A DNA stretch of 5,136 nucleotides, taken from the NCBI GenBank assembly GCA_013331125.1, contig DUGW01000077.1, positions 1-5,136 on the forward strand, written 5' to 3'. Source of the stretch: Candidatus Woesearchaeota archaeon (GTDB lineage: Archaea > Nanoarchaeota > Nanoarchaeia > Woesearchaeales > UBA11576). Within the stretch, counting starts at the first letter, position 1. The number at the start of each line of letters is the position of its first letter. The notes below the pieces were generated by a model. That model was given only the letters and a program-made list of their open reading frames with translations, had not been told where the DNA came from and did no database searches. Made by a program: the position numbers and the translations under genes. Positions 1-5,136 of the stretch are shown piece after piece.

Positions 1-587
1 CTTTGAGCACGAAGTTCGCGCAGGAAAACCCAGAACTGCTATCACCAGAGATAGACAGGCCAGAGAAGGCACTGTTCGACTCACCACTGTCAAAACTGAT
101 AAGGATAATGAACTTCGTGCTCAAAGGACCGACACAGGAAGTGATGAAATGCGTAAAGATAATGACAAGGGTAGAGACACCATTCGAACTGCTGGATTCA
201 CAGACACCACAGGCAAAGTTCGTCATGAAGAGGTTCGAGAAGATAAACAAACTCTATGAAGACCTGCTGGCATACTCGATAAAACAAGTATCAAAATCAA
301 AGATATTATTGGTAAAGTATGAAGAGAACAAGATGTCATTCTCAGGAGAGCTCGCAAACGAACTCCTGTACAGGTATCCCAACAAACTGATAATAGTCGG
401 GCGCGAGAAATCAGGAGAGATGAAATGCTCTTTGCGGTCCGGAAAGGGGATAAACATCCCGAAGGTACTGGAGAAAGCGATGGATGGAGTGCAAGGCTAT
501 GGCGGAGGGCATGAACATGCCTGCGGAGCATGCATAAAAGTAGAGGACTTCAAGAGATTCGTAGAACAGATAAAAGAAGAGATCTAG
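1..587 (+). CDS. DHH/DHHA1-family phosphoesterase (RecJ-like nuclease), C-terminal part, 5' end outside window
   Basis: The frame is open from the left edge and 194 residues are visible from a TTG at base 3. That TTG is probably internal, since no ribosome site is visible and the catalytic DHH half is missing. The C-terminal ~100 residues look like a DHHA1 substrate-binding domain: a beta-rich stretch (about residues 100-146, with the CSLRS strand at 142-146) leads to the signature GGGHEHACGA at residues 167-176, then a final helix. In this superfamily, RecJ-like exonucleases, archaeal GINS-associated nucleases and nanoRNases pair an N-terminal DHH metal centre with this domain to cleave phosphodiester bonds. 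The long helical segment before it (residues 25-95) suits a RecJ-like archaeal enzyme better than a short nanoRNase, but the exact subfamily cannot be fixed without the N-terminus. Its TAG stop overlaps the stop of the convergent zinc-ribbon gene. Confidence 0.85.
   Translation, partial: LSTKFAQENPELLSPEIDRPEKALFDSPLSKLIRIMNFVLKGPTQEVMKCVKIMTRVETPFELLDSQTPQAKFVMKRFEKINKLYEDLLAYSIKQVSKSKILLVKYEENKMSFSGELANELLYRYPNKLIIVGREKSGEMKCSLRSGKGINIPKVLEKAMDGVQGYGGGHEHACGACIKVEDFKRFVEQIKEEI
565..583 (-). terminator. Possible T-rich terminator for the zinc-ribbon gene
   Basis: Just past the minus-strand stop codon, the minus strand reads a pyrimidine/T-rich run (ATCTCTTCTTTTATCTGTTC). Archaeal RNA polymerase commonly stops at T-rich tracts without a hairpin. 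The run lies inside the coding sequence of the convergent phosphoesterase, so it may only reflect lysine and glutamate codons on the other strand. Confidence 0.25.
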
Positions 588-928
588 AAAGGCGAAGACG
601 AGACCTTGGTCCCGCACATAGGACAGTTCATAGGATATTTCTTCACAGAATCATGGATGAACGAGTGACGGCACTTGGAACAGGTATGCTTACGCTTCCC
701 ATCAGGGGTATAGACCTTAGGCTTGTAGGTCTTGGCAAGGACCTCATCATCCTTATCCCAACCGACAGGCTTGACATCCTTAGGCTCCTCCTTCTTAGGA
801 TTAAGGCGCTCCTTGACACAGTTAGGACAGACCATCATCCGATAGACAGGGTCAAGGACCAAGGCTGCGGAAGAGGTATGCTTACCGCAACGCCTGCACT
901 TCACCTGGACTTCATTGCCGAGATACAT
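584..928 (-). CDS. Small protein with two zinc ribbons (114 aa), function unknown
   Basis: The chosen ATG at 926-928 gives 114 residues beginning MYLGNEVQVKCRRCG. Four CxxC pairs are visible: C11/C14 with C34/C37, and C83/C86 with C102/C105. Together they form two four-cysteine zinc ribbons, one near each end, joined by a lysine- and proline-rich linker (about residues 40-75). Such proteins usually bind nucleic acid or partner proteins, but I do not recognise a named family. The start is favoured because a minus-strand TATA-like box (CTTAAATATT, about 948-958) lies about 25 bases upstream, which would put transcription initiation at or next to the ATG and give a leaderless mRNA; no Shine-Dalgarno is present. 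The frame stays open to base 1153, but that extension runs through the promoter and start of the neighbouring lipoprotein gene. Codons favour pyrimidine endings and AAG/GAG, unlike the + strand genes. Confidence 0.82.
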   Translation of the reverse strand: MYLGNEVQVKCRRCGKHTSSAALVLDPVYRMMVCPNCVKERLNPKKEEPKDVKPVGWDKDDEVLAKTYKPKVYTPDGKRKHTCSKCRHSFIHDSVKKYPMNCPMCGTKVSSSPF

Positions 929-947
929 GAGAAAGCAGTATGCAAGG

Positions 948-958
948 AAATATTTAAG
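948..958 (-). promoter_or_regulatory. TATA box for the zinc-ribbon gene (leaderless start)
   Basis: On the minus strand this reads CTTAAATATTT, a good archaeal TATA match. Its centre (about 953) is about 25 bases from the ATG at 928, the distance expected between a TATA centre and the transcription start. Transcript and coding sequence would therefore begin at almost the same base. Confidence 0.6.
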
Positions 959-992
959 CATATCTGTGGCAGAATGATGATGACGAAGGCAA

Positions 993-1003
993 TAATATAT
1001 AAA
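993..1003 (+). promoter_or_regulatory. TATA box for the lipoprotein gene
   Basis: TAATATATAAA on the + strand is a strong archaeal TATA element. Transcription would start about 25 bases downstream (around 1023-1027), giving a leader of about 25 bases that contains the GGTGAT ribosome site. It sits about 40 bases from the minus-strand TATA of the zinc-ribbon gene, and the two promoters point away from each other. Confidence 0.65.
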
Positions 1004-1040
1004 CCAAAACAGGCAAATAAAGGCCAAGAATACAGAAAAA

Positions 1041-1046
1041 GGTGAT
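1041..1046 (+). promoter_or_regulatory. Shine-Dalgarno site of the lipoprotein gene
   Basis: GGTGAT matches the complement of the archaeal 16S rRNA 3' end. It is followed by AAG and then ATG at 1050, which supports this start codon over any alternative. Confidence 0.75.
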
Positions 1047-1049
1047 AAG

Positions 1050-1607
1050 ATGAAAAAAACATCCATACCCATGATATTCTCAGCAGCCCTACTTATCCTC
1101 GCAGTGATAGCAGGCTGCAGACCTGCACAGCAAGCACAAGACACAGTCGACACCCTATCAGAATGCGACAGGATGAGCGAGGGAGGAAGGAAAGTGATGT
1201 GCTACGCGATGGCAGCAAACAAGATAGAGATGTGCGAAGGGGTAATAGGAAGGTTCAGAGACTCATGCGTACTGGCATTGGCAGAGACAGTATATGACAA
1301 AGAGAAAGTAAGCTATTGCTCATTGGCAGAGGCAGAAGGCAACAAAAAGATATGCGAAGCCCTGCTGATGGAAGACCCCCAGAAATGCTTCAATTGGGAG
1401 CAGGGATCAGGGACAGGCGCAGGGATAAGCATAAGGGACTGCATAGGACTGGTGGCAAGGAAGAACAAGGACCCAAGCGTATGCGATACCTTTGTCCAAA
1501 GGGCGCCAGAACTGCACAACCTATGCGGACTGACATCAGACCGCGAAGGCATGTTCGTGGCAGGGTCGCTGGAGAATGCAGAGCAATGCAAAAGCAACAT
1601 AGGCTGA
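1050..1607 (+). CDS. Cysteine-repeat lipoprotein, secreted and membrane-anchored (185 aa)
   Basis: The N-terminus is a clear lipoprotein signal peptide: MKKT, a hydrophobic core (residues 6-20), and a lipobox ending IAGC with the lipidated cysteine at C23. The mature part holds 11 more cysteines at residues 39, 51, 62, 73, 90, 102, 113, 131, 145, 159 and 180. Spacing is about 11-12 residues within groups (39-51-62-73 and 90-102-113) and 14-21 elsewhere. Segments between them are predicted helical, with recurring patterns such as C-x-x-A or C-x-x-(I/L) and basic residues just before a cysteine. This suggests a stack of short helices tied by disulfides, displayed outside the cell. Such Cys-rich helical repeats occur in hypothetical DPANN lipoproteins; no function is known to me. 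The gene has its own TATA box and Shine-Dalgarno site and ends 46 bases before the fused permease gene, which has a separate promoter. Confidence 0.88.
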   Translation: MKKTSIPMIFSAALLILAVIAGCRPAQQAQDTVDTLSECDRMSEGGRKVMCYAMAANKIEMCEGVIGRFRDSCVLALAETVYDKEKVSYCSLAEAEGNKKICEALLMEDPQKCFNWEQGSGTGAGISIRDCIGLVARKNKDPSVCDTFVQRAPELHNLCGLTSDREGMFVAGSLENAEQCKSNIG

Positions 1608-1611
1608 GCAG

Positions 1612-1625
1612 AAATATTTATAAAA
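1612..1625 (+). promoter_or_regulatory. TATA box for the voltage-sensor/permease/methyltransferase gene
   Basis: AAATATTTATAAAA just after the lipoprotein stop is a strong archaeal TATA element. The predicted transcription start falls around 1645-1650, only a few bases before the GTG at 1654, so the leader would be very short. A second, weaker AT-rich site (ATTTAAAAA, 1642-1650) lies closer to the gene. Confidence 0.6.
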
Positions 1626-1650
1626 TCATTTGATTGAACCCATTTAAAAA

Positions 1651-1658
1651 GAGGTGAT
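1651..1658 (+). promoter_or_regulatory. Shine-Dalgarno-like GAGGTGAT overlapping the GTG start codon
   Basis: GAGGTGAT is a near-perfect match to the archaeal anti-Shine-Dalgarno. However, the most upstream in-frame start codon (GTG, 1654-1656) lies inside it instead of 5-8 bases after it. No in-frame ATG, GTG or TTG lies at the normal distance; the next in-frame GTG is at 1690. Either the gene starts from a near-leaderless GTG, or the start is elsewhere or disturbed. Confidence 0.5.
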
Positions 1659-3957
1659 TGGCAGGCACAGGAGCAAAGTCGATGAGATAGTGCAGAATGT
1701 GATACCGATAGCTCTAGTGCTCCTTCTCACAGCAAGCATAGCAGAGCTGTTCTACGATGTCTCAGAATACTATCTGATGATAGACATATTCGACATGTTT
1801 GTCGTCATCATATTCGCAATAGACCTATTCTACAGGTGGAAAGAGACGCCTCACGCAGGAGAATTCCTAAGAAAACACTGGCTGGAGATCATAGCGACAA
1901 TACCCTTCAACATGATATTCATAGGCGTGGACTATCTGATATTCCTACGGGCACTGAGAGGAGTAAGGATAGTGACAAGGATGACAAGGCTCGTGAGGTT
2001 CGCCAGGTTCTTCAGGCTGCTGAGATTCCCAAGGTTCATCAGGATGCACAGGCATATGAAGCCTACAGAGATAAGGGAAGTACAGCCTCACGAGAAAGAG
2101 ATGAAAGGAGTCCTGAGCTTCAGAGTGATACTCCTGGTGACGATAAACTCGATAATGGGCACAGGCATCTGGTTCCTGACATCAGCAGGAGCAAAACACG
2201 CAGGACCTGCTTCTTTGGTATCATGGGCGATACTCTCAGTGGTGGCAGTATACATATCGATGTGCTTCTCAGAACTCACAGCCATGTTCCCGAAAGCAGG
2301 AGGAGTATACGAGTTCGCGAAACAGACATACGGAAGGTTCTGGTCATTCGTGATAGGATGGACAACATCTATAGCAGGATCAGTCACGATAGCGATGCTC
2401 ATGCTGGGAGCACTGCAATACATGATACCGATCAAATACGCAGCATACTATGTGCCGATAGCAGTGGTGCTGATAGTACTATTCAACTTCGTGGCATACA
2501 AAGGCATGCAGACAAGCACATACATGCTAGTTACGTTCGCACTGGTCACGATAGTCACCATATTATCCGCGATAATACCAGGACTGTTCACATTCAACCT
2601 GGACAATTTCACACCATTCTTTGTATTCCCGGCGATAAACATACTGCTGGCGATATTCTTCATAGCAGAGACATTCTTCGGATGGGAAAGCGCGATATTC
2701 CTGTCCGCGGAGACGAAGAATCCCAAAAAAGTGATGCCCAAGGCACTGATAATAGGCACATGCGCGATAGCAGCGTTCGCACTTCTGCTGGCATTCTCAG
2801 CGATGGGAGTGATACCCTGGCAAAAATACGCAGAATCAGTGGCCCCGCTGAGGGACCTGGGAGGGGTGTTCTTCGGAGGTGTAGGACTGATAATATTCAC
2901 GATACTGGTGTCAACATCGATAATAGGGGCAGTGGCAAGCTGGATAGTAACAGCACCAAGGCTGCTGATGGCACTGGCAGAAGACAAACTGTTCTTCGTG
3001 CACTTCGCAAAGATACACCCAAAACACAAAAGCCCATACGTATCGATAGTGTTCCAGGTAGTGGTGCTGTCAGTGCTGGTATACATAGGGGCAGGATCAT
3101 ACGAGACACTGCTCCACATGCTGATACCGATGATACTCCTGCTCTACTCAGCAGTACTGCTGAGCGTGGTCGTGCTGAGGGTGAAAAAACCCGAGATGCC
3201 GAGGCCATTCAAGGTGCCATTCGCGAAAGTAGGACCATTCGTGACTATAGCATTCATGGGATTCCTGATGTACATGTTCATAAGCCAGACACACGGATCC
3301 CTGGAGATAATCAAGATATCGATGTCACTGATAGCATTCGGAATACCAGCATACTTCTTCATAGAGATATTCTACGAACAGAGATACGTGAACATGAGAA
3401 GGAACTTCTGGGCAAGGATGTATCACGTGTACCATAAGATCCCGATGACAAGACCGCTGTTCAACAGGCTGATACACGCATGCGAGATAAATAAAGACTC
3501 AGTGGTTGTGGACTATGACTGCGGAGTGGGAGGGTTCACAAGGAAGATAATCAAGAAAGGCATCAAGTTCAAGAAGATATACGCAGTCGACAAGGCAGAA
3601 CACGAACTGAAGATATTCAAGGAATACATGAAAGACAAGAGAGTGAAGATATTCCTCCGTGAATCATGGAGACTGCCAAAGGAGATAAAAGATGTGGATG
3701 TGTTCGTATCATTCGGATCATTAGGGTATATCGATGACATGCCAGGATTCATCAAGCACATGAAACAGGTGATGAAGAAAGGAGGAAGGTTCTGCTTCTA
3801 CGTGAAGAACACATTCATCAACATGACACCCAATGCCCTGCTGGTAGGAGACAAGAAGAAGATACTCGCAATGTTCAAGACCGCAGGACTGGAAGCACAG
3901 TACATGAGGCACGGAAAACTGTTCAAGGAAGAGATATTCATATACGGGAAGAGATGA
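1654..3957 (+). CDS. Three-part fusion: voltage-sensor domain, APC amino acid permease, SAM methyltransferase (767 aa)
   Basis: One frame encodes three modules. Residues ~10-135 form a voltage sensor: S1 (14-33), S2 (42-60, with D44, D47 and D57), S3 (72-92, with E78 where Asp is usual), and S4 (97-130) with arginines at 99, 102, 105, 109, 112, 115, 118, 121, 124, 127 and 130. No S5-pore-S6 or TVGYG filter follows. Residues ~152-575 are a full APC-superfamily permease with about 12 helices: the TM1 break G169-T-G171, FPKAGG at 212-217, the TM6 segment around F342-G-W-E345, ETKNPKK at 353-359, and RPFKVP at 517-522. These transporters take up amino acids or related amines using ion or proton gradients. 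Residues ~583-767 resemble a class I SAM methyltransferase: motif I VVVDYDCGVGG (617-627), acidic D646 after strand 2, and a motif IV-like strand near 682-690. Both linkers and the methyltransferase are predicted cytosolic. Substrates are unknown. The GTG start is uncertain; the next in-frame option is GTG at 1690. Confidence 0.93.
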   Translation: MIGRHRSKVDEIVQNVIPIALVLLLTASIAELFYDVSEYYLMIDIFDMFVVIIFAIDLFYRWKETPHAGEFLRKHWLEIIATIPFNMIFIGVDYLIFLRALRGVRIVTRMTRLVRFARFFRLLRFPRFIRMHRHMKPTEIREVQPHEKEMKGVLSFRVILLVTINSIMGTGIWFLTSAGAKHAGPASLVSWAILSVVAVYISMCFSELTAMFPKAGGVYEFAKQTYGRFWSFVIGWTTSIAGSVTIAMLMLGALQYMIPIKYAAYYVPIAVVLIVLFNFVAYKGMQTSTYMLVTFALVTIVTILSAIIPGLFTFNLDNFTPFFVFPAINILLAIFFIAETFFGWESAIFLSAETKNPKKVMPKALIIGTCAIAAFALLLAFSAMGVIPWQKYAESVAPLRDLGGVFFGGVGLIIFTILVSTSIIGAVASWIVTAPRLLMALAEDKLFFVHFAKIHPKHKSPYVSIVFQVVVLSVLVYIGAGSYETLLHMLIPMILLLYSAVLLSVVVLRVKKPEMPRPFKVPFAKVGPFVTIAFMGFLMYMFISQTHGSLEIIKISMSLIAFGIPAYFFIEIFYEQRYVNMRRNFWARMYHVYHKIPMTRPLFNRLIHACEINKDSVVVDYDCGVGGFTRKIIKKGIKFKKIYAVDKAEHELKIFKEYMKDKRVKIFLRESWRLPKEIKDVDVFVSFGSLGYIDDMPGFIKHMKQVMKKGGRFCFYVKNTFINMTPNALLVGDKKKILAMFKTAGLEAQYMRHGKLFKEEIFIYGKR

Positions 3958-3958
3958 C

Positions 3959-4315
3959 ATGACACGATACCCGAGGATATCTGACACACCAGACAGGTTC
4001 GACAGGTCTGGAAATAAGCTATGCAGGAACTGCGAAAAGCCTGTCGGGGAAGGGAGAAGGCATTACTGTTCCAAAGAATGCATGGACAGATTCAACAGGG
4101 ACCATACGTGGATGTTCGTAAGGATGGACGTGCTACGCAGGGACAAGTACAGGTGCAGCATCTGCAAGAAAAGGTCCAGGAAATCACAGCTGGATGTGGA
4201 CCACATAATACCTGTGAAAGTAAGGGCTGACTTCTTCAACAAGAAGAACCTGAGGACGCTGTGCAAGGAGTGTCATAGGGCGAAGACAAAGCTTGATCAG
4301 GAAGCACTCATGTAG
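3959..4315 (+). CDS. HNH endonuclease-like protein with N-terminal zinc-binding module (118 aa)
   Basis: The ATG lies one base after the TGA of the fused permease gene, so the two are very probably co-transcribed and perhaps translationally coupled; no strong Shine-Dalgarno is seen. An N-terminal zinc module has C22/C25 and C37/C41 (CRNC...YCSKEC), like small archaeal zinc ribbons. The C-terminal half is an HNH core: structural cysteines C66/C69 and C102/C105, D81-H82 in LDVDHIIPV, N97 in the middle position, and H106 in CKECHRAKT. All HNH landmarks are present, so metal-dependent cleavage of DNA or RNA is plausible. HNH proteins of this size serve in restriction, mobile elements, phage packaging and DNA repair, and the sequence does not say which. 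The protein is basic (RRDKYR, KKRSRK), as expected for nucleic acid binding. The family call is firm and the role is unknown. Confidence 0.88.
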   Translation: MTRYPRISDTPDRFDRSGNKLCRNCEKPVGEGRRHYCSKECMDRFNRDHTWMFVRMDVLRRDKYRCSICKKRSRKSQLDVDHIIPVKVRADFFNKKNLRTLCKECHRAKTKLDQEALM

Positions 4316-4321
4316 AAAGTA

Positions 4322-5136
4322 TCATCTATCGTTCTTCTTTTTCGTCATAACAACCGCGCTCTCTTTCCGCGGATGGGCAGACAATAGAAGAGACCCCTTC
4401 TTCCACCAATATAACAGCGATAAGAGCAGCGCAGCAAACACAATCACCAATACAATATAGTATTGCCTTTTAAGCTGCTCAACCTGTTCATCAACTGGGA
4501 CTTCTTTACGCTCCGGAACGATCTGCGTCCCTGCGATATCTGAAATCTGCAGACTTTTCATCTCAGTACCAGACTCTGCTTTCTCCTCAGAAGATATCTC
4601 CTGTGCAGAGCTGCCTGATGGTCTGCTTCCTACTGGCCTTTCTTCTGGTCTTACCGGAGGAAGCAGCTCGTAAGGTTTCACATATGTACACTCTCGCTGT
4701 TGAGCAGGCTTTCCTGCGGTGCCACTGCAGCTGCCTTTGTTGGTGCAGCTTCGTGTCTGTATCCTGCTTTCGGGACATTTTGCGGGGGTCCAATCAGTGC
4801 AGGCCCATCTGTAAGTGCACCTCACTCCACCACCCCCACCTACGGTCGGCTGTGCCGGCGGGCTAGAAGGACAGGGCATTGTGCTTGTAATGTTCGTGAC
4901 ATCACTCGTGTTGACGTTGCCAGCGTGGTCTTTGGTATGAAGAGTCAAAGTATAAGAGGTTCCACAAGCAAGACCTGTGGCATTGTAATAAGTATTCGTC
5001 GTGTTTTGAACATTAAGACCATTGAGATAAACCAAAGTAGCGTTGAAGTCAGCATCAACAGGAAGAACCCAAGACCAATCAACAGCAGTAGTGTTGACAA
5101 AATCACTCTTTAGATTAGTGACAGAAGCAGGAGGCG
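4322..5136 (-). CDS. Surface protein with fibronectin III and thrombospondin-like modules and a C-terminal membrane anchor; N-terminus outside window
   Basis: The frame is open from the right edge; 270 residues are visible, and the TTG at 5035 is internal, since the fold continues upstream of it. Numbering from the first visible residue, 1-86 form a fibronectin type III-like domain (PPASVTNL at the start, W.W on strand B, then ATGL, SYTLTL and KDHAGNVN). After a proline/glycine linker (VGGGGG, about 98-103) comes a compact Cys-rich module (~105-152: WACTDW, C, QTRSC, GSC, QREC) resembling thrombospondin type 1 repeats. A low-complexity Ser/Glu/Pro stalk (~155-222) leads to a membrane helix (226-243, YYIVLVIVF...LLYWW) and a basic cytosolic tail of ~27 residues. 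Many N-x-T/S sites (NTT, NAT, NTS, NIT) suggest glycosylation outside the cell. This layout suits archaeal cell-surface or adhesion proteins; the ligand is unknown. Codons are T-ending and ATT is used for Ile, unlike the + strand genes. Confidence 0.87.
   Translation of the reverse strand, partial: PPASVTNLKSDFVNTTAVDWSWVLPVDADFNATLVYLNGLNVQNTTNTYYNATGLACGTSYTLTLHTKDHAGNVNTSDVTNITSTMPCPSSPPAQPTVGGGGGVRCTYRWACTDWTPAKCPESRIQTRSCTNKGSCSGTAGKPAQQRECTYVKPYELLPPVRPEERPVGSRPSGSSAQEISSEEKAESGTEMKSLQISDIAGTQIVPERKEVPVDEQVEQLKRQYYIVLVIVFAALLLSLLYWWKKGSLLLSAHPRKESAVVMTKKKNDR
4331..4343 (+). terminator. Possible T-rich terminator after the HNH gene
   Basis: GTTCTTCTTTTTC begins 15 bases after the HNH stop codon and would suit archaeal T-tract termination of the permease-HNH transcript. 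It also encodes the lysine-rich tail of the convergent surface protein on the other strand, so the T run may be incidental. Confidence 0.35.

Follow-up and report, generated by a model that had tools for sequence, protein, structure and literature searches.

A voltage-sensing domain joined to an amino acid permease and a methyltransferase-like domain in small-genome archaea

To our knowledge, voltage sensors have so far been found on one secondary transporter only, the sperm protein SLC9C1. In the voltage-sensing phosphatase Ci-VSP, the voltage-sensing domain (VSD) controls another kind of partner that is not a pore, namely, a cytosolic phosphatase, and no transporter is present. SLC9C1 is a Na+/H+ exchanger that carries its VSD on a secondary transporter (PMC10620092, PMC10620091), and one of these reports describes its S4 helix as coupled to the transporter via intracellular helices attached to S4 (PMC10620092). 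Here we analyze a 5,136-nucleotide stretch of DNA from a Candidatus Woesearchaeota archaeon (assembly GCA_013331125.1, contig DUGW01000077.1, positions 1 to 5,136; hereafter, the window), in which a single gene encodes a VSD, an APC permease, and a methyltransferase-like domain, in that order. A prior sequence-only reading of the window had named no known case of a voltage sensor attached to a secondary transporter plus a methyltransferase; as regards the secondary transporter, SLC9C1, as described in these reports, shows this to be wrong (PMC10620092, PMC10620091).

Like SLC9C1, the archaeal protein combines a VSD and a secondary transporter in one chain. In place of the NHE fold and cyclic-nucleotide domain of SLC9C1, however, it has an APC fold and a methyltransferase-like domain, and its VSD precedes the transporter, whereas that of SLC9C1 follows it. 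SLC9C1 was described from animal sperm and is gated by voltage and cyclic AMP (cAMP), its voltage gating having been measured, whereas the archaeal family comes from archaea with small genomes and is known from sequence. With KvAP and the other voltage-gated K+ and HCN channels, the archaeal VSD shares the sequence of S1–S4 and the fold of S1–S3, but these channels have a pore, whereas here a transporter follows. The VSD–APC permease architecture in archaea was not found in searches of the open-licence literature of PubMed Central, and the archaeal family would be the second case of a VSD-bearing secondary transporter, with another fold and in Archaea. We consider it fairly probable that the protein is a voltage-sensor-bearing amino acid permease in which movement of S4 would gate transport via a linker into transmembrane helix 1 (TM1).

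Architecture and spread of the fusion

The gene occupies positions 1654..3957 on the forward strand (+), on which all its parts described below also lie, and forms one open frame of 767 codons without interruption, encoding a VSD–APC permease–methyltransferase-like protein of 767 residues with a GTG start. By an eye reading, GTG 1654 overlaps the ribosome-binding-site-like GAGGTGAT (1651-1658), and in the alignment many relatives start a few residues further in; its standing as the true start codon is uncertain, and S1 is unaffected by the choice. The three modules and their order, as given by the sequence-only reading, are borne out by Pfam, a VSD profile, and fused homologs, and the domain limits it drew proved correct to within a few residues. 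Its placement of the linkers and the C-terminal domain in the cytosol is supported as well, as judged from the two folds. NCBIfam yielded general transporter and methyltransferase families only, all under their cut-offs (among the best 25 where more matched).

A protein search with the window protein gave 628 relatives at E<=0.001. Statements about the family rest on 120 listed of these (VSD-bearing) and on 120 listed of the 1048 relatives that a search with a 626-residue paralog lacking the VSD (VSD-less) returned. Among the 120 VSD-bearing matches listed, nearly all are 740-800 residues long with 95-100% query coverage, and S3 of the VSD is reached in 118 of 120 aligned proteins (the window and 119 listed relatives), the two without S3 letters being one record marked partial and one protein of 668 residues. 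The sources, where named, are Woesearchaeota, Nanoarchaeota, or an unplaced archaeon; most listed matches carry no organism. One match, P0002, is identical to the window and was dropped from the alignment onward. Alignment A1 has 110 rows, the window among them; its remaining 109 come from the 119 other listed matches, of which ten were removed by hand, mostly as short or less complete. Wider comparisons use 132 VSD-bearing rows (115 of the 120 fused rows, those of at least 735 residues, plus 17 from loci) and 124 VSD-less rows (116 of 120, those of at least 600 residues, plus 8 from loci); 6 and 2 of these, respectively, repeat another row, and leaving these out does not change the nature of the counts.

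The VSD profile matched 104 of 279 genomes sampled from the phylum of genome G005, and the fused frame, 607-801 residues long, is present in 16 of the 279; the 607-residue frame (G020) is on a contig that stops before the methyltransferase part. A weak partial profile match in G252 falls in an 878-residue frame. Together with G002, G003, G004, and G006, the fused gene is found in 20 genomes, the contig in G004 starting inside the gene. Nothing was found in favor of an assembly join, a frameshift, or a chance open frame; against them, the three-domain order is shared by more than 100 listed proteins, and the fused frame recurs in the sampled genomes. Because the fusion is conserved across relatives, a wrong join in the assembly and a frameshift can both be set aside, and an artefact of this kind is refuted, its probability being negligible. 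Nor do the homologs always occur as separate genes, the pattern that the sequence-only reading had set against itself: they are fused, and the VSD–permease–methyltransferase architecture is confirmed and general. Separate VSD genes near permease–methyltransferase genes are also present, in a few genomes.

Sensor, linker, and permease

A Pfam scan of the whole protein gave no VSD match at E 0.1. When residues 1-149 were scanned alone, Ion_trans (PF00520) matched over S1–S4 (residues 23-136) with E 6.2e-4 and 19.5 bits, under the curated cut-off of 25; four of six sequences scanned, the window included, matched this model, the best at E 3.4e-5. Sixteen VSDs, that of the window among them, were combined into a profile, which returned 44 matches at E<=1 from all PDB sequences, every one a voltage-gated K+ or HCN channel and the best KvAP (7.4e-5). 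Similarity to known VSDs is thus found with the PDB profile, PF00520 remaining below its cut-off. Foldseek with the VSD model gave no match below E 2.9.

The residues expected of a voltage sensor are present. S1 (residues 8-33; 1675..1752) keeps E31, which is E in 106 of 109 rows. S2 (residues 42-63, limits set by us within a predicted helix of 37-64; 1777..1842) carries the charge-transfer-centre motif D47-x6-F54-x2-D57 (1792..1824), whose acid-x6-Phe-x2-acid spacing we take to match that of Kv1.2. S3 (residues 74-91, limits again ours; 1873..1926) supplies the inner acid E78. In A1, D47 and D57 are found in 110/110 rows and F54 in 109/110, while position 78 is D in 100, E in 9, and G in 1, so that the S2 aromatic, the S2 acid, and the S3 acid of the centre are each kept in at least 109 of 110 rows (D/E78, 109/110). 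S4 and its arginine-rich extension (residues 94-135; 1933..2058) bear a basic residue at every third position: R99, R102, R105, and, after one step of four, R109, R112, R115, R118, R121, R124, R127, and R130. The length of this ladder varies between rows, with 9 to 17 basic residues within 96-130 across A1; positions 99, 102, and 105 are basic in 107/110, 110/110, and 106/109 rows.

These residues bear on whether the domain senses voltage at all. It might keep the VSD fold as a membrane anchor or oligomerization module, leaving an ordinary, ungated permease. Three observations weigh on that side and against voltage sensing: S4 is poorly predicted and of variable length, conservation is lower in the VSD than in the permease, and separate VSD-like genes are common in the phylum, several of those read having an irregular S4. 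An anchor, however, would need neither the charge-transfer-centre residues, 99-100% conserved, nor the basic residues at positions 99, 102, and 105, found in 97-100% of rows. We judge a non-sensing domain unlikely, if a serious contender.

The linker that follows (residues 136-153; 2059..2112) carries a conserved QPHEK motif (144-148) and is absent from the VSD-less sister family. Each QPHEK letter occurs in 124-131 of the 132 VSD-bearing rows and in at most 2 of the 124 VSD-less rows, and in VSD-bearing rows the motif is followed by E-M-K-K-T-L-S-F, at the place of the sisters' usual start.

The APC permease (residues 154-574; 2113..3375) has a LeuT-type fold, and both the curated Pfam model and the fold identify it as APC: AA_permease_2 matches residues 155-542 with E 8.5e-43 (147.3 bits; cut-off, 27), and AA_permease matches with E 6.5e-31. 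The glycine-rich, unwound substrate segments of TM1 and TM6 are retained, as GTGI in TM1 and F341-F-G-W-E345 in TM6, both in 132/132 VSD-bearing rows. E339 in TM6 (2668..2670) is invariant in 132/132 VSD-bearing and 124/124 VSD-less rows, and T299 in TM5 (2548..2550) in 132/132 VSD-bearing rows. The best PDB sequence match is the SLC7/LAT-type APC transporter BasC (E 3.6e-29); the fold is shared with BasC and other SLC7/LAT-type transporters (Foldseek TM-score of 0.81 on the target), which, unlike the archaeal protein, have no VSD. In an alignment counted by hand, F199 (TM6) and K154 (TM5) of BasC align with the archaeal E339 and T299, respectively.

We propose that a change in membrane potential would drive S4, with its arginines, past the charge-transfer centre (F54, D57, E78), and that the long arginine-rich extension of S4 and the QPHEK linker would pass this movement on to TM1 of the permease. 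As TM1 lines the substrate site and unwinds there, S4 movement could switch or tune transport, along a coupling path that would be shorter than in SLC9C1 and would lie within the chain itself. The substrate is probably cationic or amino-acid-like; E339, invariant and located in the substrate site, may interact with the positive charge of the substrate or serve as a proton carrier. The lower position, occupied in SLC9C1 by the cAMP (cyclic-nucleotide) domain, would here be taken by the methyltransferase-like domain.

A proton-carrying role for E339 is also part of a different proposal, in which the VSD itself would conduct protons in the manner of Hv1 and so feed or dissipate the proton gradient of the permease. 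Hv1 channels are described as VSDs alone in a review (PMC13095418), and E339 could be the protonation site; we nonetheless regard proton conduction by this VSD as highly improbable. The tuning of transport by membrane potential, put forward in the sequence-only reading, is a plausible prediction, and the architecture suggests that some microbes may switch nutrient transport with membrane voltage.

The sister family and the methyltransferase-like domain

The VSD-less APC permease–methyltransferases of Woesearchaeota and Nanoarchaeota are mostly ~620-660 residues long (up to 719 in the loci read). In the genomes searched, their permease is up to 56% identical to that of the window, and they share the C-terminal methyltransferase domain and the invariant E339, but lack the VSD and the QPHEK linker. 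The matches listed, where named, come from Woesearchaeota, Nanoarchaeota, or an archaeon, plus one Thermoproteota. As an observation in its own right, these proteins (e.g., L006:3081-4961) make up a large archaeal family whose methyltransferase looks intact.

The sisters point to the origin of the fusion. Up to I172, 109 of the 124 VSD-less rows have only 25-30 residues, 13 have 33-91, and 2 are cut short; their usual start is M-A-E-L-K-K-V-L-S-F, and the VSD and QPHEK linker precede the start point of most sister proteins. In an unrooted permease-only tree, built by a quick method from 95 of the 256 rows picked for diversity, the VSD-bearing rows form one side of a branch with a Shimodaira–Hasegawa-like approximate likelihood-ratio (SH-aLRT) support of 100, a single change. 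Because the sisters start at the QPHEK junction, a permease–methyltransferase that already existed seems to have received the VSD and linker: the VSD was apparently gained once, at the N terminus of an ancestral permease–methyltransferase fusion, together with the linker into TM1. Gain is preferred to loss because of this junction and the better-kept methyltransferase motif of the VSD-less rows, the direction being read from these two features and not from a rooted tree.

The methyltransferase-like domain (residues 601-767; 3454..3954) has a class I methyltransferase fold, as indicated by six Pfam methyltransferase models above their cut-offs (Ubie_methyltran barely; Methyltransf_11 with E 2.5e-8 over residues 620-715) and by a predicted model in which strands and helices alternate, with predicted local distance difference test (pLDDT) values of 73-94 by block. 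It is the least conserved of the three domains, with a mean majority fraction of 0.59 versus 0.85 for the permease. The glycine-rich motif that follows beta 1, which reads E/D-x-G-x-x-x-G in the sisters, is lost in this form; the window has D-Y-D-C-G-V-G within an altered S-adenosylmethionine (SAM) motif I, VVDYDCGVGG (residues 618-627; 3505..3534), where D622 stands at the first-glycine position and D620, G624, and G626 are kept, as is D646, so that this copy may still bind SAM.

Across the family, the first glycine is present in 0/132 VSD-bearing versus 123/124 VSD-less rows (0/126 versus 121/122 without repeated rows), the acid at 620 in 70/132 versus 124/124, the last glycine (626) in 124/132 versus 124/124, and the acid at 646 in 50/132 versus 105/124. 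The first glycine and the acid at 620 are both kept in 123/124 sisters, and all three glycines in 27/124. The sisters also commonly have a D-Y-D-K-F-F stretch, in place of which the VSD-bearing family has other residues. As aligned, VSD-bearing proteins have a SAM motif that is altered and not wiped out, and the clade of the window (D620, C623, G624, G626, D646) has one of the better-kept versions. A relaxed motif test (acid 620, G624, and acid 646), passed by 41/132 VSD-bearing rows, was dropped as evidence of decay because only 25/124 VSD-less rows pass it, the VSD-less rows mostly having S at 624.

The sequence-only reading had the methyltransferase acting on the imported substrate, which is weakly supported at best given the motif residues lost in VSD-bearing rows; judged from these alignments, it overrated the domain. 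An active enzyme methylating an imported substrate or a lipid would fit the six Pfam cut-offs passed by the window, the retention of D620, G624, G626, and D646, and a sister family that keeps the SAM motif; for the domain of one sister protein, the top match among PDB sequences is phosphomethylethanolamine N-methyltransferase 2 (E 5.8e-8). The first glycine, however, is gone throughout the VSD-bearing rows, the acids at 620 and 646 survive in 70 and 50 of them, and the sisters' DYDKFF stretch has been replaced, all of which make an active methyltransferase quite doubtful. Since the first glycine is lost in 132/132 rows, the C-terminal domain probably has a regulatory or structural role in the cytosol.

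A bolder extension of voltage-gated transport, to which we give somewhat less than even credence, would make this family the second class of voltage-gated secondary transporters to have evolved, independently of the other, and the first such class in prokaryotes and in the APC/LeuT fold. Membrane potential would switch amino acid transport, and the decayed methyltransferase would sense a ligand in the cytosol and so tune the response to voltage, as cAMP tunes that of SLC9C1. An archaeal VSD on a well-studied transporter fold offers an independent case with hundreds of natural sequences, and the VSD-less sister family provides a natural control; the way in which alternating access in a transporter can be driven by a voltage sensor therefore becomes directly testable. 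The family also raises the question of what membrane voltage does for archaea whose genomes measure 0.9-1.7 Mb.

Neighboring genes and separate VSD genes

In the window, the neighbors of the fused gene are a DHHA1-domain frame, a probable zinc-ribbon protein (weak matches only), an HNH nuclease, a cysteine-rich protein without Pfam match that we read as a probable lipoprotein, and a frame whose fibronectin-type match is weak; no tie to transport is found among them. The probable zinc-ribbon membrane protein gene lies at 584-1153 on the opposite strand, and a relative is near the fused gene in 3 of the 18 other loci. Across the 19 fused loci (18 plus the window), the neighbor clusters recurring in at least three are separate VSD genes (5/19) and the zinc-ribbon gene (4/19); a conserved operon partner beyond these two was rejected, as none recurs in at least three.

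Separate VSD matches are also found in 14 of the 20 fused-gene genomes (G005 being judged from contig numbers). In 8 of these 14 (G006, G029, G056, G061, G109, G112, G162, and G207), the separate VSD is in a fetched stretch together with a fused or VSD-less APC–methyltransferase gene; by a hand estimate for genomes of 0.9-1.7 Mb with 1-4 permease matches, chance adjacency would be a few percent per gene, a rough guide and no formal test given that the genomes are related. Among genomes without the fused gene, 88 of which have a VSD match, an APC–methyltransferase gene was near the separate VSD in 0/74 fetched loci, and the notion that separate VSDs mark permease operons as a general rule was rejected on this count. 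The 36 APC matches in 19 fused-gene genomes comprise 19 fused proteins, 15 frames of 630-730 residues, assigned to the VSD-less kind by length, and 2 shorter ones (459 and 504 residues); in 7 of the 19, the fused protein is the sole APC permease found. Two loci, L006:3081-10428 and L048:6095-13532, unite two VSD-less permease–methyltransferases and a fused protein with a separate VSD gene that lies on the opposite strand, the four standing side by side in L006 as VSD-less (626 residues), fused (777), separate VSD (185), and VSD-less (681).

In a review, Hv channels are described as absent from archaea (PMC13095418). Separate VSD-like proteins, mostly of 160-280 residues, are common in the phylum, with 90 frames in 87 of 100 loci (L045-L144) that were chosen for holding a VSD match. 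In the proteins read, the F-x-x-D motif is fully or nearly intact; several have an irregular or inserted S4, and in L066, L118, L136, and L137 an S4-like R/K ladder stands behind an extra N-terminal membrane region. Tandem separate VSD genes on one strand are found at L078:6308-7443, L083:3709-4721, and L101:8035-9127. At L047:6925-7917 and L051:10346-11344, the gene for a lysine-rich protein of 330-332 residues with a VSD-like region immediately precedes the fused gene in the same orientation, with a 4-base overlap between the two in L051. A 132-residue separate VSD at L058:7715-8113 is near the fused VSD in sequence (E 3e-30), and its genome, G088, also has the fused gene.
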